Under the pieces are notes generated by a model. The model did no database searches and was not told where the DNA came from. It saw nothing but the letters and a program-made list of their open reading frames with translations. Shown piece by piece: positions 2,743-19,486 of a stretch of 33,870 nucleotides of DNA. The stretch comes from an uncultured Alistipes sp. (GTDB lineage: Bacteria; Bacteroidota; Bacteroidia; Bacteroidales; Rikenellaceae). Numbering within the stretch: the first letter of the stretch is position 1; each line of letters begins with the position of its first letter. The stretch spans positions 1 through 33,870 of the forward strand of contig CAOJSG010000018.1 in the NCBI GenBank assembly GCA_948442615.1. The letters are read 5' to 3'. The translations under genes were made by a program, and so were the position numbers.

Positions 2743-2774
2743 TTTGGATAATAAGATTTTTGTCGCTACATTTG
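2743..2774 (+). promoter_or_regulatory. glpD promoter (Bacteroidota -33/-7 type)
   Basis: TTTG at 2743-2746 and TACATTTG at 2767-2774 are separated by 20 bases. This matches exactly the Bacteroidota primary-sigma consensus TTTG-N19-21-TAnnTTTG. It lies in the AT-rich stretch before glpD and gives a predicted transcription start near 2778-2782. Confidence 0.8.
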
Positions 2775-2837
2775 TTTCGGAATGAAATCGTTAAATTACG
2801 ACTCACAACCGGAATACAACTGTAAAAACCGATCGAT

Positions 2838-4424
2838 ATGCAAAGAGAAAAAATGTTGAAACAGGTTCAGGACTCCTCCAGAACCTGGGACGTAGTGATC
2901 GTAGGCGGCGGAGCCACGGGGCTCGGCTGCGCCGTCGATGCCGCGTTGAGAGGCTACTCCGTGGCGCTGTTCGAGCGCGAGGATTTCGCCAAATGCACCT
3001 CCAGCCGCTCCACGAAGCTCGTCCACGGCGGCGTGCGCTACCTCCAGAAGGGCGACGTCATGCTCGTGCTCGAGGCGCTGCGCGAACGGGGCCGCATGAA
3101 GGCCAACGCCCCCCATCTGGTCAAGGACCAGGCATTCGTCATATCGAACTACTCCTACTGGGACAACTTCCTCTACTTCTGCGGACTGGCGTTCTACGAC
3201 ATCCTCTCGTTCGGATTCGGCTACGGCCGTTCGCGCTTCATCTCCGCCAAGAAGGTCCGCAAATACCTGCCCACCTCCGTCGAAAAGGGGCTGAAGGGCG
3301 GCGTCGTCTACCACGACGGACAATTCGACGACGCGCGCATGGCCGTGAACCTCGCCCAGACCTGCGTCGAGAACGGCGGTGCGGTGCTCAACCGCACCGA
3401 GGTGGTCGGGATGCTCCACGACCCGCAGGGCAAGGTGGCGGGCGTGAAGGTCCGCGACACCGAAACCGGCGCGACTTTCGACGTGAAAGCCCGCAGCGTC
3501 ATCAACGCCGCCGGCTGCTTCGTCGACGACATCATGCAGATGGACCAGCCCGAACACGCCAAGATGGTGAAGCCGTCGCAGGGCGTGCACCTGGTGCTCG
3601 ACATGAAGTTCCTCCGGAGCGACTACGCCATCATGGTGCCCAAGACCTCCGACGGGCGCGTGCTCTTCGCCGTGCCCTGGCACGACAAGGTCGTCGTCGG
3701 GACCACCGACATCCCCCGCGAGAAGGCCGAGAGCGAGCCGATCCCCCTCGAACAGGAGATCGACTTCATCCTCTCGACGGCGGGCCTCTACATGAACCCC
3801 GCCCCCACCAAGGCCGACATCCTCTCCGTCTTCGCCGGACAGCGGCCCCTCGCCGCACCCAAAAAGGAGGGCAAGAGCACCAAGGAGATCTCCCGAAGCC
3901 ACAAGGTCATCGTCTCGGACAACCACCTCGTCACCATCACCGGCGGCAAGTGGACCTCCTACCGGCTCATGGCCGAGGATACGGTCGACAAGCTCGCGGC
4001 GCTGGGCATCCTTCCCAAACGCAAGTGCCGGACCAAGTCGTTCCGCATCCACGGCTACCGGCCCAAACCCGATCTCACGGACCACATGTACGTCTACGGC
4101 TCCGACGAACCCGCCATTCTCCGCCTGATCGAAGAGAATCCGGCCCTGGGCGAGAAGCTCTCCGACAAGTTCGGCTATACCGTCGCCGAGGTGATCTGGG
4201 CCGTCCGCCACGAAATGGCGCGCACCGTGGACGACGTGCTGGCGCGGCGCGTACGCCTGCTCTACGTCGATGCCCGGGAGGCCCGGAAGGCCGCACCGCG
4301 CGTGGCCGAAATCATGGCTGCGGAGCTCGGCCGCGACCGGAAGTGGATCGACGAGCAGATCGCCGCCTTCGAAAAGATCGCCGTGAACTACTATTACGAA
4401 GGTCCCGCCCTGCCGGCCGAATGA
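2838..4424 (+). CDS. glpD: Glycerol-3-phosphate dehydrogenase, FAD-dependent
   Basis: 528-residue flavoenzyme of the GlpD/GlpA family, which oxidises sn-glycerol-3-phosphate to dihydroxyacetone phosphate and passes electrons to quinone at the inner face of the cytoplasmic membrane. The FAD dinucleotide-binding motif is near the N-terminus (VIVGGGATGLG, residues 19-29), followed by SSRSTKLVHGGVRYLQ and later GVVYHDGQFDDARM, VINAAGCFVDD, PWHDKVVVGTTD and TITGGKWTSYR, all typical of the family. The C-terminal ~130 residues form the usual helical cap domain. Length is normal for single-subunit GlpD, and there is no signal peptide. A strong promoter sits about 65 bases upstream. glpT follows after 328 bases on the same strand, which supports G3P catabolism as the theme of the locus. 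Confidence 0.95.
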   Translation: MQREKMLKQVQDSSRTWDVVIVGGGATGLGCAVDAALRGYSVALFEREDFAKCTSSRSTKLVHGGVRYLQKGDVMLVLEALRERGRMKANAPHLVKDQAFVISNYSYWDNFLYFCGLAFYDILSFGFGYGRSRFISAKKVRKYLPTSVEKGLKGGVVYHDGQFDDARMAVNLAQTCVENGGAVLNRTEVVGMLHDPQGKVAGVKVRDTETGATFDVKARSVINAAGCFVDDIMQMDQPEHAKMVKPSQGVHLVLDMKFLRSDYAIMVPKTSDGRVLFAVPWHDKVVVGTTDIPREKAESEPIPLEQEIDFILSTAGLYMNPAPTKADILSVFAGQRPLAAPKKEGKSTKEISRSHKVIVSDNHLVTITGGKWTSYRLMAEDTVDKLAALGILPKRKCRTKSFRIHGYRPKPDLTDHMYVYGSDEPAILRLIEENPALGEKLSDKFGYTVAEVIWAVRHEMARTVDDVLARRVRLLYVDAREARKAAPRVAEIMAAELGRDRKWIDEQIAAFEKIAVNYYYEGPALPAE

Positions 4425-4636
4425 GGTATCGCCCCCATGCGGTCCTTCACGAAAAGTTAAGCGCCGTGAAACATCCGTGAAATGTCCGTTCGCTTATTTT
4501 GAAGCGTCGAAAAAGACGAAACGCATTTTATGGATATTCCGGTTCCGCACACGACCGTCCGCTCCGTTCCGCCGACCATGCCGGCGGAACGGCCGCGGAG
4601 ATCGGCAGCCGTGCGGAGGCTTCGCGCGAGACCGGA

Positions 4637-4679
4637 CGGCAACCGGCGACGAGGCGAGTTTCGCCCGTCTTCGTTGCCG
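4637..4679. promoter_or_regulatory. Long imperfect inverted repeat upstream of glpT, overlapping the putative -33
   Basis: CGGCAAC (4637-4643) pairs with GTTGCCG (4673-4679). Nested inside, GACG (4648-4651) pairs with CGTC (4666-4669) and GGCGA (4653-4657) with TCGCC (4661-4665), around GTT. The 3' arm includes the likely -33 TTG. It could be an operator or, if read from glpD, an attenuating hairpin; the sequence does not decide between them. Confidence 0.4.
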
Positions 4680-4703
4680 ATTTCGAAAAAATACGTATAT
4701 TTA
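4674..4703 (+). promoter_or_regulatory. Weak promoter for the glpT operon
   Basis: TATATTTA (4696-4703) is one base away from TAnnTTTG, and TTG (4674-4676) lies 19 bases upstream as a partial -33. It is in the only AT-rich patch before glpT, 49 bases from its ATG. Confidence 0.5.
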
Positions 4704-4711
4704 TAGGACGC

Positions 4712-4726
4712 GATCTCCGCGAGATC
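4712..4726. promoter_or_regulatory. Perfect dyad just downstream of the glpT -7 element
   Basis: GATCTC (4712-4717), CGC, GAGATC (4721-4726): a perfect 6-bp palindrome with a 3-base centre. It lies 8 bases past the putative -7 and thus at about +5 to +20 of the glpT transcript. This is a usual place for a repressor operator, though a 5'-UTR stem-loop is equally possible. Confidence 0.4.
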
Positions 4727-4752
4727 ATCGCAACCCGTAAAACAACAGACAG

Positions 4753-6186
4753 ATGGCCAATTTCTTCAATCCGCCCGCCGACAAGCCCCGGCTGTCCGCC
4801 GACCGAATCGACCGCGAATACAAACGCATGCGCCTCAAGGTATTCCTCGGGGCCTTCTTCGGCTACGCAGCCTACTACCTGGTGCGGAAAAACCTTTCGC
4901 TGGCGGCTCCGGGCATGATCGAGGAGGGGCTGCTGGATAAGGCGAGCGTCGGCATCGCCGGCTCGGCGATCTCGATCGCCTATGCGTTCAGCAAATTCAT
5001 CATGGGCAGCATCTCCGACCGCTCGGACGCCCGCAAATTCCTGGTCGTGGGGCTGATTCTCTCGGCCGTGCTGATGATCGCCACGGGACTCATCCCCTAC
5101 GGCACCGCCTCGACGGGTCTGAACGTCGCGATAATCTTCACGCTGATGCTCGTCATCGGATGGCTGTCGGGCATGGGCTGGCCGCCGTGCGGCCGAATCA
5201 TGGCCCACTGGTTCTCGCAAAACGAGCGGAGCTTCAAGATATCGGTCTGGAACACGTCGCACACCATCGGCAGCGGCTCGCTCGGGCTGCTGGTCACGGC
5301 CGGCATCGCCCTGTTCGCCTGGGCGGGCATCGGCCAGACGTGGCGCGCGGCCTTCATCTTCCCGAGCTGCGTGGCGCTGCTGCTGGCCGCCTTCTGCTGG
5401 TGGGCGCTGCGCGACCGGCCCCAGGCGTGCGGCCTGCCGCCCATCGACGAGTACCGCCACGACTACTCGGCCAAAAAAGCCGCCAAGGGCGAGGAGGACA
5501 AGATCCCGTTCAAACGGCTCTTCGTGGACTACGTCTTCAAGAACAAGATCCTCTGGCTCATCGCCCTGGCCAACGCCTTCGTCTACCTGGTGCGCTACGG
5601 CATCGGCGACTGGGCGCCGGTCTACCTCCAGGAGATGGGCATCATGGACAAAAGCCAGAGCAACCTGGCCTTCGCGCTGCACAACTACGCCGGCGTGCCG
5701 GGCACGATCATCTGCGGCTGGATTTCGACGCGATTCTTCAAGGGGCGCTGCGCCCCGGCCAACGTCATCTACATGATCCTGGTGATCCTGGGCATCCTGC
5801 TCTACTGGAAGGCGGCGGCGATCGCCGGCCGGCTGGCCCCGCTCCTCGGCGCCGACGCGGACGCCGTCTGCCGCACGATCGTCTACACCGCCCTGTGCGG
5901 GATCGGCTTCTGCATCTACGGTCCCGTCGCGCTGATCGGCATCCAGGCCCTGAACCTCGTGCCGAAGAACGCCGCGGGCACGGCCGCCGGATTCGTCGGG
6001 CTGTTCGGCTACCTGCTGGGCGACGCCGTGCTGGCCAAGATCGTGATGGGCTCCGTAGCCGAAAAAGCCTCGCTGGGCTGGTCGGCGACCTTCTGGATGT
6101 TCATCGTCGCCAGCGTGCTGGCCACGGCCTTCTGCGCCACGACCTGGAAAAAGGAGAAACTCGCGGCTTCGGCCGCAGACAAATAG
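4753..6186 (+). CDS. glpT: Glycerol-3-phosphate:phosphate antiporter (OPA family MFS)
   Basis: 477-residue 12-helix major-facilitator protein that exchanges external (periplasmic) glycerol-3-phosphate for cytoplasmic phosphate at the inner membrane. It resembles Escherichia coli GlpT along its length as I remember that sequence: FFGYAAYYLVRKN in helix 1, SDRSDARKF in the first loop, GMGWPPCGR, VYLVRYGIGDW in helix 7, and AAGTAAGFVGLFGYLLGD near the end. The two phosphate-binding arginines of the family are present as Arg45 (YYLVRKN) and Arg281 (YLVRYG), and the substrate-site His falls at His170 (WNTSHTIGSG). These residues favour GlpT over the hexose-phosphate relative UhpT. It is the first gene of a closely spaced run; the next gene starts 7 bases after its stop. 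Confidence 0.92.
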   Translation: MANFFNPPADKPRLSADRIDREYKRMRLKVFLGAFFGYAAYYLVRKNLSLAAPGMIEEGLLDKASVGIAGSAISIAYAFSKFIMGSISDRSDARKFLVVGLILSAVLMIATGLIPYGTASTGLNVAIIFTLMLVIGWLSGMGWPPCGRIMAHWFSQNERSFKISVWNTSHTIGSGSLGLLVTAGIALFAWAGIGQTWRAAFIFPSCVALLLAAFCWWALRDRPQACGLPPIDEYRHDYSAKKAAKGEEDKIPFKRLFVDYVFKNKILWLIALANAFVYLVRYGIGDWAPVYLQEMGIMDKSQSNLAFALHNYAGVPGTIICGWISTRFFKGRCAPANVIYMILVILGILLYWKAAAIAGRLAPLLGADADAVCRTIVYTALCGIGFCIYGPVALIGIQALNLVPKNAAGTAAGFVGLFGYLLGDAVLAKIVMGSVAEKASLGWSATFWMFIVASVLATAFCATTWKKEKLAASAADK

Positions 6187-6193
6187 GGAACCG

Positions 6194-7600
6194 ATGAAAA
6201 GAGGACTCCTGCTGCTGGCCCTGCTCGGCAGCGTATGCGCCGCCGCCCGCCCCGTGAGAGGGACGGTGGCGTGCGGCACGGAACCGCTCGACGGCGTACT
6301 CGTCACGGACGGCTACGGATTCGCCCGGACCGACGCACGGGGCCGGTTCGAACTGGATGCGAACGACGAGGCGCTCTTCATCGCGGTCGTCACCCCCTCG
6401 GGCTACGTGGCGCCGTCCGACGCCGGCATTCCGCAATTCTTCCTGCCCTGCACGCCCGAACGGAAGCGCTACGACTTCCTCCTCGAGCGCTGGTCCGAAT
6501 CGACCGGCCGCTACGAGCTGCTGGCCATCGCCGATCCGCAGCCCAAGACCGAGGCGCATTTCGAACGGCTCCGCACGGAGATCATCCCTCCGCTGCGGGC
6601 CGCCACGGCCGACGGAGCGCAGCGCGGCATGCCGCAGGCAGCGCTGATCCTGGGCGACATCGTCTGGGACGCGCCCGAGCTGATGGACCCCGTCAAGCGG
6701 CAGTTCGCCTCGCTGGAGATCCCGGTCTATCCCGTCATCGGCAACCACGACCACGACCAGACGAAATCCACCGACCGCGAAGCCACGGCCAACTACCGCC
6801 GCCACTTCGGGCCGACCTACTATGCGTTCGACCTCGGCCGCACGCACTACATCGTGCTCGACGACATCGTCTACCGCAGCCGGCGCGACTACGACGAACA
6901 GATCGATTCGGTGCAGATCGCCTGGGCGGTCGACTACGCGAAGCGGCTGCCCGCCGGGTCGCGCGTCTGCATCGCCATGCATGCGCCGCTGGTCAAATCG
7001 TGGCTCGGATTCCGCGAGATGGCATCGGCCGCACCCCTGCTCGAAGCCCTGGAGGGGCACGAAGTGCACTTCATCACCGGCCACACGCACTTGAACTCGA
7101 ACTACGACATTCGCGACAACGTCGTGGAACACAACGTGGCCCAGGTGTGCGGCAACCTGTGGTGGGACCCTCTGAACTGGGACGGCACGCCCAAAGGCTA
7201 CCAGCATTTCAGCGAAAACGGCGACCGCTTCGAGTGGAGCTACCGGACGCTGGACGCACCCGAAGGCCGGCAGCTGCGGCTCTGGCGCCCTGGCCAGGTC
7301 GCCGCCTGCCCGGACAAGGTCGTGGCGAAGGCCTGGAACTGGGACCCGCACTGGACCGTAGTGTGGTATGAGGACGGCCGCTACCGCGGCGCCATGCAGC
7401 GGATCGAACTCGACGATCCGGACTATGCGGCGCACCTCGATTCGCTGAAGGCCGCAGGGCGCAAACTCTCCAAGGTCCAGCGCAGCCGCAACACGAACTT
7501 CTACTTCGCGGCCCGGCCCTCGGCCGGCGCGCGCGAGGTCCGCGTGGAGGCGACGGACCGCTTCGGCAACCGCTATTCGGATTGCGTGCGGCTGCGATGA
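6194..7600 (+). CDS. Secreted calcineurin-like metallophosphoesterase
   Basis: 468 residues with a cleavable signal peptide (MKRGLLLLALLGSVCAAA, no good lipobox), so probably periplasmic. Residues ~20-95 form a small beta domain of the MetallophosN type, ~105-330 the catalytic calcineurin fold, and ~340-468 a MetallophosC-like beta domain ending in VEATDRFGNRY. Metal-site motifs are D114-P-Q116 (first motif, with Gln in place of the usual His), GD at 154-155, GNHDHD at 183-188, His263 (MHAP) and GHTH at 296-299. A DPQ first motif is also found in CPPED1-like enzymes, so activity is expected. The start is 7 bases after glpT, which suggests coupled expression and a role in releasing glycerol-3-phosphate from a phosphodiester or larger ester in the periplasm. 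The substrate is inferred from context only. Confidence 0.85.
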   Translation: MKRGLLLLALLGSVCAAARPVRGTVACGTEPLDGVLVTDGYGFARTDARGRFELDANDEALFIAVVTPSGYVAPSDAGIPQFFLPCTPERKRYDFLLERWSESTGRYELLAIADPQPKTEAHFERLRTEIIPPLRAATADGAQRGMPQAALILGDIVWDAPELMDPVKRQFASLEIPVYPVIGNHDHDQTKSTDREATANYRRHFGPTYYAFDLGRTHYIVLDDIVYRSRRDYDEQIDSVQIAWAVDYAKRLPAGSRVCIAMHAPLVKSWLGFREMASAAPLLEALEGHEVHFITGHTHLNSNYDIRDNVVEHNVAQVCGNLWWDPLNWDGTPKGYQHFSENGDRFEWSYRTLDAPEGRQLRLWRPGQVAACPDKVVAKAWNWDPHWTVVWYEDGRYRGAMQRIELDDPDYAAHLDSLKAAGRKLSKVQRSRNTNFYFAARPSAGAREVRVEATDRFGNRYSDCVRLR

Positions 7601-7671
7601 TCCCCCGGTCCGTGCCGGCGCGCACGAGGGCCGCCCCGAAAACGAACGACAAACACCAAAACCTACCAACT

Positions 7672-9903
7672 ATGAAAAAACTCTTTACGCTATTCACGGG
7701 ACTGCTCCTCGCCGCATGCGTGCCGCTGCTCTGCGGATGCGACGACAGCGACCGGAAGGTGCACCGCGACGGCGACCTGTCGACCGAGGTCGTCATCCCC
7801 ACCTCGATGGACGTGTTCAAAGGCATGGAAATCACCGTCGAAGGCGAAGGTTTCGAACAGGGCGACCAGGTCGCTCTGCGGGCCGAAACCGACCTGCCGG
7901 CCCAAACGACGATACGCTCGGCCACCGAACTGAGCTTCCGGATTCCGGACGAAGTGGTCGACCAGACCGTCTACAAGATCGTCCTCCGGCGCAAGGACGA
8001 CTACCAGGTGCTGGGCGCCAGCCGTCTCACGGTGAAGCTGGCGATCCGCGTGGCGCTGGAAGAGACGATCCGCGGCTTCTGGGGCGGCAGCGCCTCGATC
8101 GCCGGCGAGGGCTTCGCCGCGACCGACAAGCTGCTGCTCAAGCGCGAGGGCGAAGCCGGCCCCGAGGTCTCGATCGTCGCCGTCGACGCGACATCGCTCC
8201 GGTTCGGCATTCCCGCCGGATTCCCCGAAGGCACCTACGAATTCACGCTCCGGCGCGGCGATGAACAGCAGGTGCTCGGCACCGCCGCCCTCGTGCTCGA
8301 CTACGGCGGCACGGTGCCCGACCGCGAAGGCGCCTCCGTCAAGGGCATCGTCCACTGCCGCGGCATCGGCGTGGCCGACGTGGCGGTATCCGACGGCGAC
8401 CGGATCGTCAAGACCGACGCCGACGGCTTCTACCACCTCGCCTCCGACAAGCGCAACGGCCTGGTCTTCGTCATCCAGCCCTCGGGCTACGAGGTGCCCG
8501 TCACGGAGGCCAGTCCCGAGTTCTGGCACCCGCTGACAGCAGATGCGAGCACGGTCGAAACCCGCAACTTCAAGCTCGAGCAGAGCGACGACGAGAGCTA
8601 CAGCCTGCTCGTGGCCACGGACATCCACCTGGCCAATCGCAATACCCCGAAAGACTACAAGCAGTTCGCCGACGGCTTCGCCAAGGAGGTCACGACGGCC
8701 TACAACGGCTCCGCCCGCAAGGTGCACTGCCTCAACCTCGGAGACTTCGCCTGGGACGGCTACTGGTACTCCAACAAATGGGCGCTGCCCGAAAGCAAGG
8801 AGGCCGTCGCGGACTTCGGATTCCACTTCTGGTCGGTGATGGGCAACCACGACAACGACCCCTACGTGGACACCGACTTCGGCGCCGAGATTCCCTACCG
8901 CACGGTCATGGGACCGGTCTACTACGCCATGAACATCGGGCAGGTGCACTACCTGATGCTCGACAACACGGTCTATGTCAACACCGGCGGCACGACCGGA
9001 ACGGTCGGCGAACGCAACTACCGCCGCCAGTTCACCGACGAGCAGATCGCCTGGGTCAAGGAGGATCTCAAGCTGGTCGACCCCTCGACGCCGATCGTTG
9101 TCGGCTTCCACTGCCCGCTCTACAGCAACACCTGGAACTCGCTCACCGGGAAGCTCACCGTGCTGTCCGCGCTCGACGGCGGCACCGCCTCGATCTCCAA
9201 GCTGCTCGACTGCTTCGCCGGCCGCGCGGCCGTGCACGTGGTCTCGGGGCACAGCCACGTGAACCGCAACAACCAGTCGCCGACCCACCCCAACGTCTAC
9301 GAGCATAACGTGGCGGCCGTGTGCGGCACCTGGTGGTGGACGCAGCAGTACGCCAAGAACAACATCTGCACCGACGGCACGCCCGCCGGATACAAGGTCT
9401 TCGACATCGACGGCAAGTCGATCGAGTGGCGCTACAAGGCCGTGGGCCTCGACGCGGACCGCCAGTTCACGACCTACGACATGAACGAGGTCAAGAAGTA
9501 CTGGGCCACCGACGCCACGGCGCAGGCCGCATTCGCCGCGGGCAACGACCTGCGGGGCCGCGAAAACGACTACAACGGCGTGGGCGAGAACGAGGTCTAC
9601 ATCAACGTCTGGAGCTGGGAGCCCGACCGATGGACGCTCACCGTGAGCGAAAACGGCCGCAACCTGCCCGTCGAACAGGTGTGGAAGCGCGACCCGCTGC
9701 ACACGATCTCGTACGACATTCCGCGCGGCGCGGCGAACAAGGGCGACCTGACCTTCCCCTCGGGCATGGTCACCCACATGTTCGGCGTCACGGCTTCGTC
9801 GGCCACGTCGACGCTCGAAATCCGTGCGACCGACCGTTTCGGCAACACCTACACCCAGACGATGACCCGTCCCAAAGCCTTCACGGCCGATCCGAGCAAA
9901 TAA
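7672..9903 (+). CDS. Lipoprotein metallophosphoesterase with N-terminal IPT/TIG-like domains
   Basis: 743 residues. The start is the ATG at 7672, because MKKLFTLFTGLLLAAC begins a lipoprotein signal there and the in-frame upstream extension has no signal character. Two possible lipid-attachment cysteines exist, Cys16 (LLAAC) and Cys23 (LLCGC). Cys23 is followed by DDSD, an acidic run like Bacteroidota surface-export signals. Residues ~30-200 look like two IPT/TIG-type Ig-like repeats (each with GEGF and a closing LRR segment), ~205-300 a MetallophosN-like domain, ~310-555 the calcineurin fold, and ~580-743 a C-terminal beta domain ending in ATDRFGNTYTQ. The catalytic set is canonical: D317-I-H319, GD 357-358, GNHD 391-394, His480, GHSH 526-529. 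It is a paralogue of the preceding phosphoesterase, with added binding domains and surface placement. Confidence 0.85.
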   Translation: MKKLFTLFTGLLLAACVPLLCGCDDSDRKVHRDGDLSTEVVIPTSMDVFKGMEITVEGEGFEQGDQVALRAETDLPAQTTIRSATELSFRIPDEVVDQTVYKIVLRRKDDYQVLGASRLTVKLAIRVALEETIRGFWGGSASIAGEGFAATDKLLLKREGEAGPEVSIVAVDATSLRFGIPAGFPEGTYEFTLRRGDEQQVLGTAALVLDYGGTVPDREGASVKGIVHCRGIGVADVAVSDGDRIVKTDADGFYHLASDKRNGLVFVIQPSGYEVPVTEASPEFWHPLTADASTVETRNFKLEQSDDESYSLLVATDIHLANRNTPKDYKQFADGFAKEVTTAYNGSARKVHCLNLGDFAWDGYWYSNKWALPESKEAVADFGFHFWSVMGNHDNDPYVDTDFGAEIPYRTVMGPVYYAMNIGQVHYLMLDNTVYVNTGGTTGTVGERNYRRQFTDEQIAWVKEDLKLVDPSTPIVVGFHCPLYSNTWNSLTGKLTVLSALDGGTASISKLLDCFAGRAAVHVVSGHSHVNRNNQSPTHPNVYEHNVAAVCGTWWWTQQYAKNNICTDGTPAGYKVFDIDGKSIEWRYKAVGLDADRQFTTYDMNEVKKYWATDATAQAAFAAGNDLRGRENDYNGVGENEVYINVWSWEPDRWTLTVSENGRNLPVEQVWKRDPLHTISYDIPRGAANKGDLTFPSGMVTHMFGVTASSATSTLEIRATDRFGNTYTQTMTRPKAFTADPSK

Positions 9904-9927
9904 CCCCTAAAAAATCGATAGGACATT

Positions 9928-12582: not shown

Positions 12583-12599
12583 GAGAGCCGGGGACCGAC

Positions 12600-12631
12600 G
12601 GCCGGGACCGTTCCGCAGAGCGGTTCCGGCC
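12600..12631 (+). terminator. Intercistronic hairpin immediately upstream of susC
   Basis: GGCCGGGACCG (12600-12610) pairs with CGGTTCCGGCC (12621-12631) with one G-T pair and a 10-base loop. It sits in the 85-base gap between the BACON lipoprotein and the SusC gene and has no T-run. An attenuator or an RNA-processing/stabilising stem that gives SusC/SusD a different transcript level is more likely than a full terminator, since I see no promoter between it and SusC. Confidence 0.45.
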
Positions 12632-12667
12632 CGCAGCCCGAACTGACCATAAAAACAGACAAGCATT

Positions 12668-15600
12668 ATGAATCCGAAATCCTATATACGGAGCCTATTC
12701 GCAACCGTAACCATGCTGACGATCGCCGCAGGAGCCTGGGCGCAGAGTCGCAACGTGACGGGTACCGTGTTCGACAACGACGGGAAGACCCCGTTGGTGG
12801 GCGCCACCGTCCTCGTCCAGAATACCGCCAACGGCGTCATTTCCAACGTCGACGGCTCCTACTCCATCAAGGTGGACAGCGACAACGCCGTGCTGGTATT
12901 CCAGTCGCTGGGCTACGACACGCAGCAGGTCGAAGTCGGCACCCGCACGCGGATCGACGTGACGCTCAAGGAGTCGTCGCAGAAGATCGACGAGGTGGTC
13001 GTGACGGCCCTCGGCCTCACGCGCGCCCAGAAATCGGTCGGCTACGCCGTGACGAAGGTCTCGTCGGAAGAGCTGACCAAATCGGTCCAGGCCAACTGGG
13101 TCAACAGCCTCAACGGCAAGGTGGCCGGCCTCTCGATGTCGTCGGCCGGCACGGGCCCGGGCGGCGGCACCACCCGCGTCACGCTGCGCGGCGACTCGTC
13201 GCTCAACTACGGCAAGAACGAGGCGCTGGTGGTGATCGACGGCATCCCGATGATGAGCAACAACCAGGTCGCATCGGGCTCGGGCGCCAACTACGCCAAC
13301 AGCAACGCCCCGGTCGACTTCGGCAACCCGATGTCCGACCTCAACCCCGAGGACATCGACAACGTCTCGGTGCTGAAGGGTCCCGCCGCCGCCGCGCTCT
13401 ACGGCTCGATGGCCCAGAACGGCGTGATCCTCATCACCACCAAGAAGGGCCGCGAGCAGAAGGGCATCGGCGTGACCTACAACGGCAGCGTCGTCTTCGA
13501 GCAGGCGGGCTTCTGGCCCGACTTCCAGGAGGAGTACGGACCGTCGGCCGTCACCACATCGCTCACCAACCGCGTGGCTTCGGCCTGGGGTCTCCCCGGC
13601 TCGATGACCCTCGACGGACAGCCCGTGCGCAAGCAGATGTCGCGCTACACCTACGGCGAACGCTTCGACGCCAGCCAGAAACGCTACCTCTACCTTTCGA
13701 AGAACTGGGAGACGGGCGAGTTCACCCCGCTGCCGTGGGTCTATGCCGACGACTGGTTCACCGGTCTGTTCGAGACGGGCGTGACGTGGAACAACACCGT
13801 CACCGTCGACGGCTCGACGGGCAAGGGCACCAGCGCACGCTTCATGTTCACCGACACGCGCAACGACTGGATCATGCCCAACACCGGCTACAACCAGCAG
13901 ACCTTCGCCCTGTCGCTCAACCAGAAGATCAGCAAGTTCATCCAGCTCTCGGGCAAGGTCACCTACATCCGCAAGGACAGCGACAACATGCCCATGTCGG
14001 GCTACAGCCAGGGATCGCCCATGTACGGCCTGATCTGGGGCTACAACGTCAACCCCATGCGGGCCTACCGCGACGAGTACATGCAGGGCCGCTACACGCT
14101 GGCCAACTACCTGGCCGGCGCGTCGGAAGACCCCTATAACGTCACCTCGGGCCTGGTCTACAACGACCTCGAGGGCCACAACCCCTACCGCACGCTCTAC
14201 GAAGAGCTGAACAAGCTCGACCGCGACCGCGTCTACGGCAACATCAACGTCAACGTCGACATCCTCCCCGGCCTGTCGCTCAACCTGCGCGGCGGTCTGG
14301 ACGCCAACATCGAGTGGCGCTCGCAGCAGAAGCCCTTCATGTCGCTCGACAACCGCTACGGCATGTACCGCGAGAAGACGATCCGCCGCTACGACTACAC
14401 CTCGGACTTCCTGCTCCGCTATACGCGCACCTTCGGCGAACGCTTCTCGCTGACGGCGGCGTTCGGCGGCAGCTCGACCCGCAACAAGTACTATTCGACC
14501 ACCATCACGGCCAGCCAGCTGCTGACCGAAGGCCCGCGCATGTACTCGTTCGCCAATGCGGCCGTGGCGCTCGACACCTCGCCCTACCGCAGCAACAAGG
14601 CGCTGCACAGCCTCTACGGCTTCCTGAACTTGGGATGGGACGACACCTACTTCCTCGACTTCACGGCCCGCAACGACTGGTCGTCGACGCTCCACCCCTC
14701 GGTGTGGTCGTACTTCTATCCGTCGGTCAGCGCCAGCGTCCTGCTCGACAAGGCGTTCAAGATCGACCACCGCAACGTCAACATGCTCAAGCTGCGCGCC
14801 TCGTGGGCCAGCGTGGGCAACGACACCGACCCCTTCTCGCTCTATCCGGACTACTCGACCACCGACTATCCGGGCGGCTACACCCTGCCGACGACCTATC
14901 CCAACGCCTTCATCAAGCCCGAGCGCACCGACAGCTGGGAGGTGGGTCTGGAGACCAAGTTCTTCCAGAACCGTCTGAGCGTCGACCTGGCCCTCTACAA
15001 GACCACGACCCGCGACCAGATCATCAGCGCCTCGCAGAGCGCCGAGATCGGCGCCACGTCGATGAAGATCAACGCCGGCAAGATCGAAAACAAGGGTATC
15101 GAAGTCTCGTTCCGCGCCGTGCCGGTCAAGACCCGCGACTTCCAGTGGGAGGTGACGGGCAACTGGTCGCTCAACAAGAACAAGCTCTGCTCGCTGCAGG
15201 AGGGCTGGGACCCGCAGACGCCGCTCCAGACCTCGACCTCGACCACCATCGGCAGCCGCGTCTACATCTACTCCTACGTGGGGCAGTCGATGCACCAGCT
15301 CTACGGCAAGGACTGGGTGCGCGCGCCGAAGGGGGCGACCTACGTCGATGAGAACGGTCAGACGGTCAGCTGCGAAGGGATGCCCATCATCAACGAGAAG
15401 ACGGGTTACCCCTCGTTCACGAAGCCCGACCAGCATCTGGGTCAGGTGTTGCCCGACTGGAAGGCGGGATTCGGCACCACGCTGCGCTACAAGGGGCTGT
15501 CGATGTCGGCCACCTTCACGGCCCAGGTGGGCGGCAACGCCTACTCGGTGACCAACTTCGCGCTGTCGTACCAGGGCAAGCTGAAGAACTCGCTGCCGGG

Positions 15601-16009
15601 CCGCGAAGACGGTCTGGTCGTGCCGGGCGTGAACGCCACGACGGCCGAAGACGGCACGGTGACCTACAAGAAGAACAACACCATCACCGAGAACGTCTAC
15701 ACCTACTACCAGACCTACAAGTGGAACCGCGACAACGGCCGGGCCAACACGTTCAGCACCGACTTCCTCAAGCTCAAGGAGCTGCGCGTGGACTACCAGC
15801 TGCCCAAGACCTGGGTCAACAAGACCCGCATCCTCCAGGGCGCCTCGATCGGCTTCTTCGCCACCAACGTCTTCTGCATCACCGACTGGCCGCAGTTCGA
15901 CCCCGAGGCGGCGGGTCTGGTCAACGGCACCAACATCTACCCCGGCATCGAAACCGTCACCTTCCCGATGACGCGCACCTACGGCGTCAACATCAAACTC
16001 CAATTCTAA
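12668..16009 (+). CDS. SusC-like TonB-dependent outer-membrane transporter
   Basis: 1113 residues. The signal peptide ends AGAWA-QS (~residue 25). A carboxypeptidase-D-like Ig domain covers ~28-105 (VTGTVFDNDGKTPLVGATV...DGSYSI), followed by the SusC linker KIDEVVVTALG, a plug domain over ~120-260 (ALVVIDGIPM, LKGPAAAALYGSMAQNGVILITTKKG) and a 22-strand-type beta barrel to the C-terminus, which ends in aromatic Phe (GVNIKLQF) as outer-membrane barrels do. With its SusD partner it forms the lidded pump that imports bulky ligands using TonB energy. SusD follows after 13 bases. SusC proteins import glycans, peptides and other ligands, so the substrate has to be taken from context; here the neighbours are phosphoesterases and a G3P transporter, with no glycosidase. 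Confidence 0.95.
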   Translation: MNPKSYIRSLFATVTMLTIAAGAWAQSRNVTGTVFDNDGKTPLVGATVLVQNTANGVISNVDGSYSIKVDSDNAVLVFQSLGYDTQQVEVGTRTRIDVTLKESSQKIDEVVVTALGLTRAQKSVGYAVTKVSSEELTKSVQANWVNSLNGKVAGLSMSSAGTGPGGGTTRVTLRGDSSLNYGKNEALVVIDGIPMMSNNQVASGSGANYANSNAPVDFGNPMSDLNPEDIDNVSVLKGPAAAALYGSMAQNGVILITTKKGREQKGIGVTYNGSVVFEQAGFWPDFQEEYGPSAVTTSLTNRVASAWGLPGSMTLDGQPVRKQMSRYTYGERFDASQKRYLYLSKNWETGEFTPLPWVYADDWFTGLFETGVTWNNTVTVDGSTGKGTSARFMFTDTRNDWIMPNTGYNQQTFALSLNQKISKFIQLSGKVTYIRKDSDNMPMSGYSQGSPMYGLIWGYNVNPMRAYRDEYMQGRYTLANYLAGASEDPYNVTSGLVYNDLEGHNPYRTLYEELNKLDRDRVYGNINVNVDILPGLSLNLRGGLDANIEWRSQQKPFMSLDNRYGMYREKTIRRYDYTSDFLLRYTRTFGERFSLTAAFGGSSTRNKYYSTTITASQLLTEGPRMYSFANAAVALDTSPYRSNKALHSLYGFLNLGWDDTYFLDFTARNDWSSTLHPSVWSYFYPSVSASVLLDKAFKIDHRNVNMLKLRASWASVGNDTDPFSLYPDYSTTDYPGGYTLPTTYPNAFIKPERTDSWEVGLETKFFQNRLSVDLALYKTTTRDQIISASQSAEIGATSMKINAGKIENKGIEVSFRAVPVKTRDFQWEVTGNWSLNKNKLCSLQEGWDPQTPLQTSTSTTIGSRVYIYSYVGQSMHQLYGKDWVRAPKGATYVDENGQTVSCEGMPIINEKTGYPSFTKPDQHLGQVLPDWKAGFGTTLRYKGLSMSATFTAQVGGNAYSVTNFALSYQGKLKNSLPGREDGLVVPGVNATTAEDGTVTYKKNNTITENVYTYYQTYKWNRDNGRANTFSTDFLKLKELRVDYQLPKTWVNKTRILQGASIGFFATNVFCITDWPQFDPEAAGLVNGTNIYPGIETVTFPMTRTYGVNIKLQF

Positions 16010-16022
16010 AAACGCGCACGCC

Positions 16023-17687
16023 ATGAAATACGCAAAACAACTCCTGCTCCTCGTCTCGCTCGCCACGGCGGCGGCCTGCACGGGCGACTTCGAGGACTAC
16101 AATACAAACCCCAACAAGCAGAGCCAGGGGTCGATCGAGCCGCTCTCGATGCTCGAGCCGCTGATCTACTCGTCGTCGAACAGCTATTCGTCCTACATGC
16201 TGAGCATCGCCAACGAGATCTCGCAGGTGACCGTCGCCAAGTCCACGCCGCGGCGCGAACACGCCTACAACCTCGACAACGGCAACTTCCAGGCGATCTG
16301 GAACCTCGGCTACCGCTGGGCCAACAACGCCGACCACATGTACCAGCTCGCCACGGCGCAGAACCAGCCCAACATGCAGGCCATCGGCCTGACGCTGAAG
16401 GTCTACCACATGTCGATCCTCACGGACATGTTCGGTTCGGTGCCCTATCGCGAGGCGCTGAAGGCCAACAGCGGCGTCACCAAGCCCCGCGTCGACTCGC
16501 AGCAGGAGGTCTACGAAGCCATGATGGCCGACCTCGAACGCGCCAACGCGCTCTACAACCGTTCGATCGCGCTGAACGACCCGACCAAGGACGCCATCTA
16601 CGGCGGCGATATCGCCAAGTGGCAGAAATTCACCAACACGCTGCACCTGCGCCTGCTCATGCGCGTGAGCGGCCGCAACGACGCCTTCACCCCGTCGGTG
16701 TCCGCGCGCATCGCCACGATCCTGGGCGACCCGGCGACCTGGCCCGTCTTCGAATCGAACGCCGACAACGCCACCGTCAAGTTCTCGGGCGCCGCGACCT
16801 ACTACCGCACCTATTTCAATGCGACGGACTTCCCCGACGACCTGAGCCTGTCGGGCGACCACCACGTCGCCGCACAGCTGCTCGGAATGATCTACGACGC
16901 GCAGAGCGGATTCGAAGACCCCCGCATGCGGATCTGGATCAAGCCGCGCTACGTCCCGTCGCCGGCCGAGATCCGCGAGATGGTCGGCGCCGTCTCGGGC
17001 TGCACGATCACCTACAACGGCAACACCCGCATCAGCGAGTGCGAACCCTACCTGCACTACGAGACGCTGGTGGGCGACACGCGCCCCAACCGCATGCTCG
17101 ACTACGACGAGCTGCTCTTCATCAAGGCCGAAGCCGCTCTGAAGGGCTGGATCGGCGGGTCGGCCGAAGAGTACTACAAAGAGGCCGTGCGGGCTTCGTG
17201 CGAGAAGTGGGCCGAATACGGCGACTTCGCCTCCTATCCGTCGCTCAACGGCGGCAAGGTGTCCTTCAGCTCCGTGGCGATCAACCAGAAGCAGATCGAC
17301 GCATTCCTCGCGAGCGACCGCGGCAGGTGGGACGGCACCGAACAGCGTCTGGCCGAACAGAAGTGGCTCGGCCTCTTCTGGGTGCTCGGCTTCCAGCAGT
17401 ACCACGAGATGCGCCGCACGGGCTACCCCGAGTGCAAGACCGGCATGGGCACGATCGAGCTGAACCGCACTGACGGCAAGTTCATCGCCCGCTACCCCTA
17501 CCCGCTCATCGCCATCGCGAACAACCGCGCCAACTACACGGCGGCCTTCGCCGAACAGGGCGGCACGATCGACGACAACACGATGACCTTTCCCGTGTGG
17601 TGGAGCGGCCAGGCCGTCGCCCGCGACGCGGGCCGTCCCTGGCCCCACAGCTTCCGCCACAACGTAACCGCCGAGGAAAACCTGTAA
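16023..17687 (+). CDS. SusD/RagB-family nutrient-binding outer-membrane lipoprotein
   Basis: 554 residues, with a lipoprotein signal ending at Cys19 (LATAAAC-TGDFEDYNTNPN, a start characteristic of this subfamily). TPR-like helical sequence runs through the first half, with LTDMFGSVPYREALK, the hallmark of the SusD-like_2 group (PF12771 as I recall it), and RPNRMLDYDELLFIKAEAAL later. It is the surface lid that binds ligand over the SusC barrel. Spacing is 13 bases on both sides, so SusC, SusD and the following BACON lipoprotein form one unit. The SusD-like_2 subgroup is not diagnostic for glycan use, which leaves room for a phosphoglycerol ligand. Confidence 0.95.
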   Translation: MKYAKQLLLLVSLATAAACTGDFEDYNTNPNKQSQGSIEPLSMLEPLIYSSSNSYSSYMLSIANEISQVTVAKSTPRREHAYNLDNGNFQAIWNLGYRWANNADHMYQLATAQNQPNMQAIGLTLKVYHMSILTDMFGSVPYREALKANSGVTKPRVDSQQEVYEAMMADLERANALYNRSIALNDPTKDAIYGGDIAKWQKFTNTLHLRLLMRVSGRNDAFTPSVSARIATILGDPATWPVFESNADNATVKFSGAATYYRTYFNATDFPDDLSLSGDHHVAAQLLGMIYDAQSGFEDPRMRIWIKPRYVPSPAEIREMVGAVSGCTITYNGNTRISECEPYLHYETLVGDTRPNRMLDYDELLFIKAEAALKGWIGGSAEEYYKEAVRASCEKWAEYGDFASYPSLNGGKVSFSSVAINQKQIDAFLASDRGRWDGTEQRLAEQKWLGLFWVLGFQQYHEMRRTGYPECKTGMGTIELNRTDGKFIARYPYPLIAIANNRANYTAAFAEQGGTIDDNTMTFPVWWSGQAVARDAGRPWPHSFRHNVTAEENL

Positions 17688-17700
17688 ACGCTACGCAACC

Positions 17701-19398
17701 ATGAATACCAAATCCATATTCCGCAACATGTGGAGCACGGCGGGCGCTGCGGCGCTGCTGTTCTCCGCCGTCGCCACGGCTTCGTGCAGCGACGACGACA
17801 CCGAGGGCGGCGTCCCCTACTTCCGACTGGAGAACACGGTCGTTTCGAGCAAATTGGTCTCGAATCCGTCCGAACTGGGCTTCGACGTGGGCCCCGTCGT
17901 GGGCGACCCGACCGTCGAACTGATCCGCTACGACATCCGTTCGAACTGCGACTGGACCGTGGAGTGCAACTCGACGGACGCCGACGAATGGCTGCTGATC
18001 TATCCCAAATCGGGGCAGGGCGACGGCAAGGTGCGCTTCTGCGTCACCGACAACGACGCCACCGCGACCCGTTCGACGACCGTCGTCTTCCGTTATGCCG
18101 ACGGGCGCCAGACCCAGGCGACGCTGGCCGTCAATCAGTTCGGCAGCGAGCCTTACATCCGGTTCTACGTCGACGGCGCGGCCGCCGACCGCATCGAGGG
18201 CGGACGCTACGCACAGCAGTTCCGGATCGAGGTGGCCTCGAACGTCGACCCGTTCTACGCGATGCCGCAGCTCGACTGGGCCACCTTCACCGAGACCGGC
18301 AACGGCACCTTCACGCTCGACATGACCGACTATCCGACGGAGCCGACGGCTTTGGAGCGTTCGACCGCCATCGCCTTCAAGGGCAGCGGCGCCTACGCTT
18401 CGGTCGCCGCACAGCTCGACATTCTCCAGACCATCGAGCCGAAGATCGCGGCCGTCTGTCCCGACGAGGAGGAGGGCTCGCTGCCTCCGTTCCCCGCGAC
18501 CAAACCCGCGCCCCAGGTCTACACCGTAAGCTGCAACTGGGACTGGACGGTCGAACAGGAGGCCGAAGACGACTGGTTCACGGTGACGCCCTCGTCCGGC
18601 GAGGCCGGCAAGGAGTACACGGTGACGATCGCCCCGCAGACCAATACGGGCGAGACGCGCTCGGCAACCTTCTCGATCGTCTCGCAGGAGGTGCTCGGCG
18701 TCAAGGCCCGCAAGACGATCGAACTCATGCAGGAGGGCAACGCCACGGGCGCCCCGATGAGCGGACTGGAAGAGCCCGTGAAGTGGTTCTTCAACGGTGC
18801 CGAGGGCGCCGACTACACCGTGCCGACCAAGCAGTTCGTCGAGGACAACGACCTGAAGCCCCAGTCGGGCGTCGGCAGCCTGAGCTACCACCACACCTAC
18901 GAAGAGCAGACCGGCACGGCCGATCCGGACTGCGCCCGCTTCATCGGCGGCACGGGCCAGCCCTACGTCACGGGGGCATGGCCGGGCGACTACTGGCTCT
19001 TCTCGACGCCGGTCAAGAACCTGAAGACCGGCACGAAGGTCCGCTTCACGGGCTGCACGCGCATCTCGGGCACCGGCCAGAAATACTGGCGGCTGGAGTA
19101 CAAGGAGGGCGGCACGACCTGGAAGGAGGCCTGCGAACTCCAGACCGGCACCTTCAACGGCCAGACGTTCACCTACACCCACGCGCTGCCCACCTCGACG
19201 CCCAACCTCGCGATCGACGTCACGGTGACCTTCAAGCGTCCGATCGCCGACGGAGCCGTCGAATTCCGCTTCATCTGCGCGGTCAACTGCACGGGAGGCA
19301 ACGCCGCACTGGAGAACCCCAACGGCGGTACGATACGCTGGGCCAGCTCGAAAGAGACCGGCTACAACGACAGCCCGATCATCCAGGTGGTCGACTGA
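17701..19398 (+). CDS. BACON-domain surface lipoprotein sharing a C-terminal module with the 884-residue protein
   Basis: 565 residues. The signal ends at Cys29 (ATASC-SDDDTEGG, acidic surface-export-like). Three Ig-like repeats are visible: BACON-type at ~70-147 and ~270-345, and a more divergent one at ~165-245. Residues ~356-565 form a module closely similar to residues 672-884 of the protein encoded at 9928-12582. Both contain CARxIGxTGxPYVTGAWPGDxW, then SGTGxKYW, TVTF, PIADGA, PNGGT and an isolated conserved Cys in the F(I/T)CA-type strand. It is the last gene of the run and sits where the surface glycan-binding protein (SusE-like position) lies in classical sus loci, so a ligand-binding role is likely. 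No catalytic motif seen. A 28-base palindrome follows 24 bases after its stop. Confidence 0.82.
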   Translation: MNTKSIFRNMWSTAGAAALLFSAVATASCSDDDTEGGVPYFRLENTVVSSKLVSNPSELGFDVGPVVGDPTVELIRYDIRSNCDWTVECNSTDADEWLLIYPKSGQGDGKVRFCVTDNDATATRSTTVVFRYADGRQTQATLAVNQFGSEPYIRFYVDGAAADRIEGGRYAQQFRIEVASNVDPFYAMPQLDWATFTETGNGTFTLDMTDYPTEPTALERSTAIAFKGSGAYASVAAQLDILQTIEPKIAAVCPDEEEGSLPPFPATKPAPQVYTVSCNWDWTVEQEAEDDWFTVTPSSGEAGKEYTVTIAPQTNTGETRSATFSIVSQEVLGVKARKTIELMQEGNATGAPMSGLEEPVKWFFNGAEGADYTVPTKQFVEDNDLKPQSGVGSLSYHHTYEEQTGTADPDCARFIGGTGQPYVTGAWPGDYWLFSTPVKNLKTGTKVRFTGCTRISGTGQKYWRLEYKEGGTTWKEACELQTGTFNGQTFTYTHALPTSTPNLAIDVTVTFKRPIADGAVEFRFICAVNCTGGNAALENPNGGTIRWASSKETGYNDSPIIQVVD

Positions 19399-19422
19399 TC
19401 CGCACGAACCTTCCATATGCCG

Positions 19423-19450
19423 CGAGGCCCCGTCGATCGACGGGGCCTCG
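19423..19450 (+). terminator. 28-base perfect palindrome closing the Sus-type operon
   Basis: CGAGGCCCCGTCGA (19423-19436) is followed directly by its exact reverse complement TCGACGGGGCCTCG (19437-19450). As RNA it would form a stem of 11-12 bp with a minimal loop. It begins 24 bases after the stop of the BACON gene. The downstream sequence (TGTCGTTTCGG) is only modestly T-rich, so this is a terminator by position and stem strength but without a classical U-tract. Confidence 0.6.
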
Positions 19451-19486
19451 TGTCGTTTCGGCAGCCGGCGCACGGCCCCCGGCGGC

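Follow-up and report, generated by a model that had tools for sequence, protein, structure and literature searches.

A candidate phosphoglycerol-utilization locus joining SusC/SusD to GlpT and GlpD in Alistipes

The stretch of uncultured Alistipes sp. DNA analysed here (hereafter, the window: 33,870 nucleotides, contig CAOJSG010000018.1 of assembly GCA_948442615.1), which is the entire contig C18 of the G000 genome (2.04 Mb, 81% complete), carries a run of eight genes, all on the forward strand, from position 2838 (start of glpD) to 19398 (end of the BACON-2 gene). The run joins glpD and glpT to a ‘SusCD block' of two phosphoesterases (PE1 and PE2), two BACON lipoproteins and a SusC/SusD pair (Table 1), and we estimate at about two in three the probability that it encodes a glp-regulated SusCD system turning phosphoglycerol compounds into glycerol-3-phosphate (G3P) for GlpT and GlpD. 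Such a phosphoglycerol-utilization locus was proposed in an earlier, sequence-only reading, and is supported by the co-occurrence of the two blocks, a common predicted operator, the recurrence of the gene set in a second family and GDPD fusions; to the first observation we add a predicted glp operator upstream of glpD, as well as the PE1-GDPD fusions. Chance adjacency finds no support in the neighbourhoods, examined in 180 genomes of the genus Alistipes, 393 order-wide genomes and 199 genomes of another Bacteroidales family (f9), together with the operator scan.

In the proposed pathway, the BACON proteins and SusD would hold the ligand at the cell surface, the lipoprotein PE2, with its complete two-metal motifs, would make the first cut, SusC with TonB would import the pieces, and periplasmic PE1 would free G3P, which GlpT would take in against phosphate and GlpD would oxidize to dihydroxyacetone phosphate, with GlpR derepressing as G3P rises. 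As ligand, we consider most likely a glycerophosphodiester or a chain of phosphoglycerol whose size would prevent passage through a simple porin.

Neighbourhood of the glp and SusCD genes

Among the 180 Alistipes genomes, a PE2-like protein (E<=1e-20) is found in 92, GlpT (E<=1e-60) in 92 and GlpD (E<=1e-60) in 43. Twenty loci around the top PE2 matches and two further loci were annotated by running BLAST on open frames called mechanically, with the weaker PE2 matches left out. Within this set, the SusCD block of the window is present in eight genomes, the window included. It is joined to glpD-glpT in G000, G166, G128 and G018, the latter three having the eight genes in the window order with a divergent DeoR-family (GlpR-type) gene before glpD; the glpT-PE1 gap is 27 bases in G128 and 21 bases in G018, and the PE1 start is unclear in G166. 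The detached blocks of G002, G005, G013 and G016 adjoin, as does the block of the window, an SNF-type transporter and a gene of 117 residues that is presumably FolB-like (the G016 block ends at the contig end within BACON-1). A GDPD gene and a DeoR gene precede glpD-glpT in G005, G013 and G016, and glpT in G002. Despite the separation in four of the eight genomes, the blocks do not behave as independently mobile units without co-occurrence: glpT is present in all eight and glpD in seven, compared with 84 and 36, respectively, of the other 172 (kinship ignored).

Outside Alistipes, 13 of the 393 order-wide genomes encode PE1-like proteins (E<=1e-70), 22 encode GlpT (E<=1e-90) and seven encode both; with the own genome excluded, there are six co-occurrences compared with 0.64 expected (the p-values ignore kinship and are indicative only). 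The two genes are in one run in G403 and side by side in G547; they lie within ~10 kb on opposite strands in G469, and on separate contigs in G272, G460 and G516, which puts linkage at three of the six genomes if G469 is counted and, conservatively, at two.

GlpT is encoded in 46 of the 199 f9 genomes. The surroundings of glpT were read for 21 of these (G403 and G547 included, the 3-kb contig of G701 left out), and in nine of the 21 regions a phosphoesterase of the PE1/PE2 kind lies within the glp run or adjoins it. In G403 and G644, a divergent glpR is followed by glpD-glpT-PE2-SusC-SusD-PE1-BACON; G623 has the same order with PE1 fused to GDPD, and G615 shares it apart from PE1. G581, cut by a contig end, has a divergent glpR followed by glpD-glpT-SusC-SusD, with PE2 beyond glpR, and a second contig, the likely continuation, carries SusD, PE1-GDPD and BACON. 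The versions in G694 and G573 are cut by contig ends, G575 has PE1 only, and G547 has only a PE1-GDPD fusion, directly after glpT. The fusions in G547 and G623 were read by Pfam; that in G581 is a GDPD match in a 759-residue frame of which PE1 homology covers 478 positions. Among the 120 PE1 homologues listed, of 647 found, 17 carry GDPD. The f9 loci differ from those of Alistipes in gene order and keep the gene content, and this recurrence with shuffled order is the strongest neighbourhood evidence. The conserved neighbourhood of glpT, MetallophosN/C phosphoesterases and SusCD, which the sequence-only reading put forward for a search of other genomes, is found in f9, PE1-GDPD of G623 and G581 included. 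As a side observation, glpD of G644 (L231, 1223-2765) is represented by two open frames.

In the SusC tree (27 rows), 12 rows of both families form one clade (100/100), consisting of nine physically linked SusCs and three detached Alistipes orthologues (G002, G005 and G013); the neighbouring group comprises 10 rows from unlinked loci and none from linked ones. In the PE2 tree (29 rows), the f9 PE2s, without that of G581, form their own group, and the Alistipes PE2s cluster with unlinked Alistipes PE2s; a single shared origin was tested with this tree and failed. All linked GlpTs belong to one of the two deep clades of the GlpT tree (39 rows), mixed with unlinked ones. The glp-SusCD association has thus probably arisen, or been re-established, on more than one occasion.

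A predicted glp control site

The glpR-glpD/glpT spacers have in common a promoter -7 box that runs into a near-palindrome, typically TACTTTTGTTTCGAAACGAAA. The corresponding site of the window, at position 2766, is 49 bases before glpD and scores 36.6 bits with a matrix of 20 sites from other genomes, with a runner-up of 16.2 bits; with this matrix, the top site of each of 40 first-order random sequences has a mean of 8.7 bits and a maximum of 22.3. With a matrix of 16 Alistipes sites only, the window site scores 29.9 bits. When the 16-site matrix is run over 1,136,354 bases of loci (some overlapping), 28 sites of at least 18 bits are detected, 21 of which precede glpD, glpT or glpA (these include the 16 training sites and one second copy of a training site); four precede detached SusCD blocks, one precedes SusC of G164, one is a training site on the other strand, and one lies elsewhere.

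A stricter test scored the best sites in the 300 bases upstream of 532 open frames in 51 loci, a set from which glpD, glpT, glpA and glpR were excluded and frames with <200 bases upstream were dropped, and in which some frames are surely non-genes. The four top scores belong to the detached SusCD blocks of G016, G013, G005 and G002 (27.5, 23.3, 22.9 and 22.9 bits), the fifth (21.1) to a SusC that G164 encodes in a different phosphoesterase locus, and the sixth is 14.5; the top five are all outside the training set. In the four linked Alistipes loci, sites of at least 18 bits occur solely before glpD, as would be expected if transcription runs through. Thus, the SusCD block is predicted to have a glp-type promoter/operator even when detached. 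In G002, the predicted operator is separated from PE1 by a sulfatase-family (PF00884) frame (L038:12852-14606), and in G016 the first frame after the predicted site is a 122-residue frame of no assigned kind. The G164 site, at 11626 of L047, is a near-perfect glp-type palindrome before SusC; this metallophosphoesterase/BACON SusC locus has no adjacent glp genes on the contig, and it is not part of the SusC clade described above.

The window assembly encodes a single DeoR protein, 42% identical to a neighbour GlpR (assembly 81% complete). On contig C9 of the same genome (L250:8719-15541), the sole detected GDPD lies ~5 kb from this sole detected DeoR-family regulator and a frame resembling GlpT (35% over 250 residues).

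Gene identities, protein locations and the phosphoesterases

Table 1. Features of the eight-gene run in the window
Feature	Position	Strand	Basis
Predicted glp promoter/operator: TAnnTTTG -7 box into near-palindrome TTTCGGAATGAAA (2775-2787)	2766..2788	+	matrix scan
glpD, FAD-dependent G3P dehydrogenase	2838..4424	+	Pfam DAO + DAO_C; PDB 3da1, 2qcu
glpT, major facilitator superfamily (MFS) G3P transporter	4753..6186	+	TIGR00712; PDB 1pw4
PE1, MetallophosN-Metallophos-MetallophosC phosphoesterase; signal peptide without clear lipobox, predicted periplasmic	6194..7600	+	Pfam
PE2, lipoprotein phosphoesterase, MetallophosN + MetallophosC; predicted surface-exposed	7672..9903	+	Pfam
BACON-1 lipoprotein, CSDDD after signal; predicted surface ligand binder	9928..12582	+	Pfam BACON/BACON_2
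Strong hairpin, BACON-1/SusC gap	12600..12631	+	fold z -4.0 for 12580-12668
SusC-like TonB-dependent transporter	12668..16009	+	TIGR04056, 631 bits, over cut-off
SusD-like ligand-binding lipoprotein	16023..17687	+	Pfam PF12771, E 2.6e-79
BACON-2 lipoprotein (CSDDD)	17701..19398	+	Pfam BACON
GC-rich hairpin at run end, likely terminator	19421..19452	+	14-bp stem, fold z -5.0

The best NCBIfam match of GlpD is a G3P dehydrogenase model, with a score under the cut-off, and that of GlpT is the TIGR00712 glpT equivalog, at 517 bits under a cut-off of 632 bits; the closest solved relative of GlpT is Escherichia coli GlpT (1pw4, E 5e-126, residues 3-461). SusD matches 26 PDB sequences, named mostly SusD or surface glycan-binding proteins, and its gene adjoins that of SusC with 13 bases between them, as in SusCD-type utilization loci. 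BACON-1 and BACON-2 have a C-terminal region in common, at 40% across 291 aligned positions, which suggests, at the sequence level, one ligand type. In accord with the sequence-only reading, Pfam reveals no glycoside hydrolase in the eight proteins, nor any polysaccharide lyase or carbohydrate esterase family, so that the enzymes by which a glycan polysaccharide utilization locus (PUL) is recognized are lacking; the GDPD/GlpQ domain PF03009 is also absent from the eight.

The gaps of 7, 71, 24, 85, 13 and 13 bases claimed from glpT to the last gene are all exact. The claim that the run comes directly after glpD holds with respect to gene order, but the 328-base gap between glpD and glpT is looser than the others, and that a single transcription unit spans this gap is something we infer. 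The BACON-1/SusC gap, of 85 bases in the window, is 70-94 bases in five of the six Alistipes relatives measured. The hairpin at the end of the run was matched in stability by none of 200 shuffles, has no clear T run and is not listed by the consensus terminator scan. Scans of the window for sigma-70 promoters and terminators give no more sites than shuffles do (Bacteroidota promoters differ in type from the sigma-70 consensus), and the window has no Rfam match.

In line with the acidic residues that the sequence-only reading noticed in the surface lipoproteins, the probable lipid cysteine begins an acidic stretch in both BACON proteins (CSDDD), PE2 (CDDSD) and SusD (CTGDFED). In PMC6222051, CS(D/E)2 is the surface-export signal of Bacteroides thetaiotaomicron SusG; as far as primary structure goes, both CSDDD motifs fit this signal, and those of PE2 and SusD are acidic but inexact. 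A crude lipobox count gives matches in 54 of 74 PE2 rows and seven of 67 PE1 rows. BACON-1, BACON-2, PE2 and SusD are accordingly predicted to be at the surface and PE1 in the periplasm.

Both phosphoesterases contain MetallophosN and MetallophosC, with the central Metallophos domain listed by Pfam for PE1 only; nevertheless, PE2 has every metal motif checked, the full set D-x-H, GD, GNH, H and GHxH being present in all 74 aligned rows. We take this set to be the signature of GpdQ-like class III two-metal metallophosphodiesterases. In PE1, all the metal residues checked other than the His of D-x-H are invariant across the 67 aligned rows. For the models of both phosphoesterases, the best structural alignment is with the glycerophosphodiesterase GpdQ, other metallophosphoesterases being close or tied; neither protein gave a match when its sequence was searched against the PDB. 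We infer that both enzymes act on phosphoglycerol compounds. Loci that combine SusCD with a metallophosphoesterase are very numerous: 5,879 of the 7,998 candidates scored match one such PE2 at E<=1e-60. Among five plasmid records, three have distant phosphoesterases (27-28%) and two match the front part of PE2 only. Some related loci show other combinations: in G403, a 1,078-residue frame (L196:9465-12701), a few genes away from a SusC-like frame, unites a MetallophosN/C phosphoesterase with an FAD-dependent oxidoreductase domain (PF12831), and the phosphoesterase SusCD loci L046, L048 and L057 encode proteins of ~1,430-1,500 residues behind PE2, with a BACON domain in that of L046.

Competing explanations and known systems

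A number of observations weigh against the phosphoglycerol reading. The glpD-glpT pair does not adjoin the SusCD block in four of the eight Alistipes carriers, one of which, G002, lacks GlpD at E<=1e-60; G002 has PE1, and G013 has PE2 (L041, 8192-10511), split over two open frames, and PE1 was not found in the runs of G016 and G615. In f9, 12 of the 21 glpT regions, some of them short contigs, are devoid of a PE1/PE2-type phosphoesterase. The PE2 tree fails to group the linked PE2s of the two families, and SusC of G581, although linked, falls outside the SusC clade. With respect to control, the window assembly, which is 81% complete, yielded no GlpR orthologue, and the bare pattern TTTCGNNNYGAAA is not significant alone, with two occurrences in the window, a number reached by nine of 100 shuffles. 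Three of the four detached sites have operator-only scores of 11.5-12.1, and 21 of the 532 regions reach 11.5; a general -7 box supplies part of the score, and the sites of G002 and G005 are identical. Finally, a Gln replaces the His of D-x-H in PE1 (DxQ in 66 of the 67 aligned rows, DxH in one), Foldseek places Rv0805 above GpdQ for the PE1 model, GpdQ and Lmo2642 are tied for the PE2 model, and literature and structure searches found no measured activity for any MetallophosN/C protein.

The alternative that fares best retains the pathway, so that its odds overlap with those of the phosphoglycerol reading, and differs in the ligand, which would be small, namely the deacylated head groups glycerophosphocholine, -ethanolamine and -glycerol. 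This is a possibility to be taken seriously, if tentatively. Relatives with another GlpT type, among the phosphoesterase-free f9 regions, have either glpD-glpT-GDPD with a conserved, Pfam-less protein (four genomes: G630, G596, G622 and G592) or glpABC-GDPD-glpT (two: G634 and G602), arrangements in keeping with small diesters, and GDPD joins PE1 in some loci. However, for ligands that pass through porins, SusC/SusD together with a phosphoesterase that is likely at the surface and a pair of large BACON lipoproteins seem excessive, and PE2 and PE1 look like a first-cut and finishing pair. The conserved protein that follows glpD-glpT-GDPD (445-467 residues, in L240, L241, L243 and L244; two homologues have no Pfam match) may serve glycerophosphodiesters as a dedicated channel in the outer membrane.

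Within the phosphoglycerol reading, the SusCD/BACON apparatus speaks for a ligand larger than porin-sized diesters, phosphoglycerol chains such as teichoic acids being the boldest version. That the SusCD machine eats polyglycerol phosphate, meaning (lipo)teichoic acid from nearby Gram-positive bacteria, with PE2 cutting the chain at the surface, SusC/SusD importing oligo-phosphoglycerol, PE1 trimming this to G3P and GlpR switched by the product, seems rather doubtful at present.

The closest published kind of system found is PUS/PusCD of Flavobacterium. According to the main text of PMC8115612, PusCD complexes are defined by induction on phosphate depletion, with predicted outer-membrane binding and import and periplasmic phosphoester cleavage, inner-membrane organic-phosphorus transporters alongside, and extracytoplasmic function (ECF) sigma/FecR-like regulators in some clusters; ‘glpT' and ‘glycerol-3-phosphate' are absent from that main text. 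The window is similar in that SusC/SusD lie beside phosphoesterases, PE1 and PE2, and not beside carbohydrate-active enzymes, but differs from PusCD as described there in its MetallophosN/C enzymes and in that glpT and glpD share the run, with a predicted glp operator in front. It could be imagined that the run is a phosphate-scavenging system of the PUS type, in which SusCD and the phosphoesterases collect the phosphorus of many organic phosphates under phosphate shortage and G3P is imported for its phosphate, not its carbon, as would be in line with the low-phosphate induction of SusCD-phosphoesterase loci, some with such transporters, in Flavobacterium (PMC8115612, main text). This appears improbable given that the predicted control site is one in common with glpD, that GlpD in the run points to carbon and electron use, and that the regulators reported there for PUS are absent from the eight genes. 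Two-metal phosphoesterases are often promiscuous, which is compatible with scavenging. The weakest alternative, that the block targets some other phosphorylated glycan and neighbours glpD-glpT by genome history only, could draw on the abundance of MetallophosN/C proteins in the genus (the 92 of 180 genomes with a PE2-like protein), on the 13 further PE2-like Alistipes loci, 10 of which have a SusC match and none glpD or a close glpT, and on the four genomes with separated blocks, but is very unlikely in view of the recurrence in f9 with another gene order, the GDPD fusions and the glp-type sites before the detached blocks.

Compared with other known systems, the phosphoglycerol locus combines familiar parts in a different way. 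It resembles starch-type Sus/PUL in having SusC, SusD, lipoproteins with acidic signals and likely surface and periplasmic enzymes, but the eight window proteins include no glycoside hydrolase, polysaccharide lyase, SusR, hybrid two-component or ECF regulator. In the glpTQ and UgpQ-GlpQ systems of E. coli and others, a diesterase outside the inner membrane yields G3P for GlpT and then GlpD under GlpR. In the window, by contrast, two metallophosphoesterases would fill the diesterase slot and SusC/SusD would perform the outer-membrane step; GDPD is missing from the window block, fused to PE1 in some relatives and, in the 16 genomes examined for it, encoded elsewhere. Unlike GpdQ of Enterobacter, to which they are 15-17% identical, the window phosphoesterases have extra MetallophosN/C domains and export signals and, in PE1, DxQ. 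A literature search over titles and the starts of abstracts gave no SusCD-glpT locus among the matches listed; with subscription journals mostly uncovered, this does not amount to absence from print.

SusC/SusD loci are by default read as glycan loci. If the phosphoglycerol reading is correct, a SusCD block that lacks carbohydrate enzymes and has, even when detached, the predicted control site of G3P catabolism would offer a way into the function of the very numerous SusCD/metallophosphoesterase loci and, should the teichoic acid version be true, a glp-controlled key to this large uncharacterized class. Phosphoglycerol compounds, whether from lipids or from the walls of neighbours, would then join the diet of Bacteroidota.

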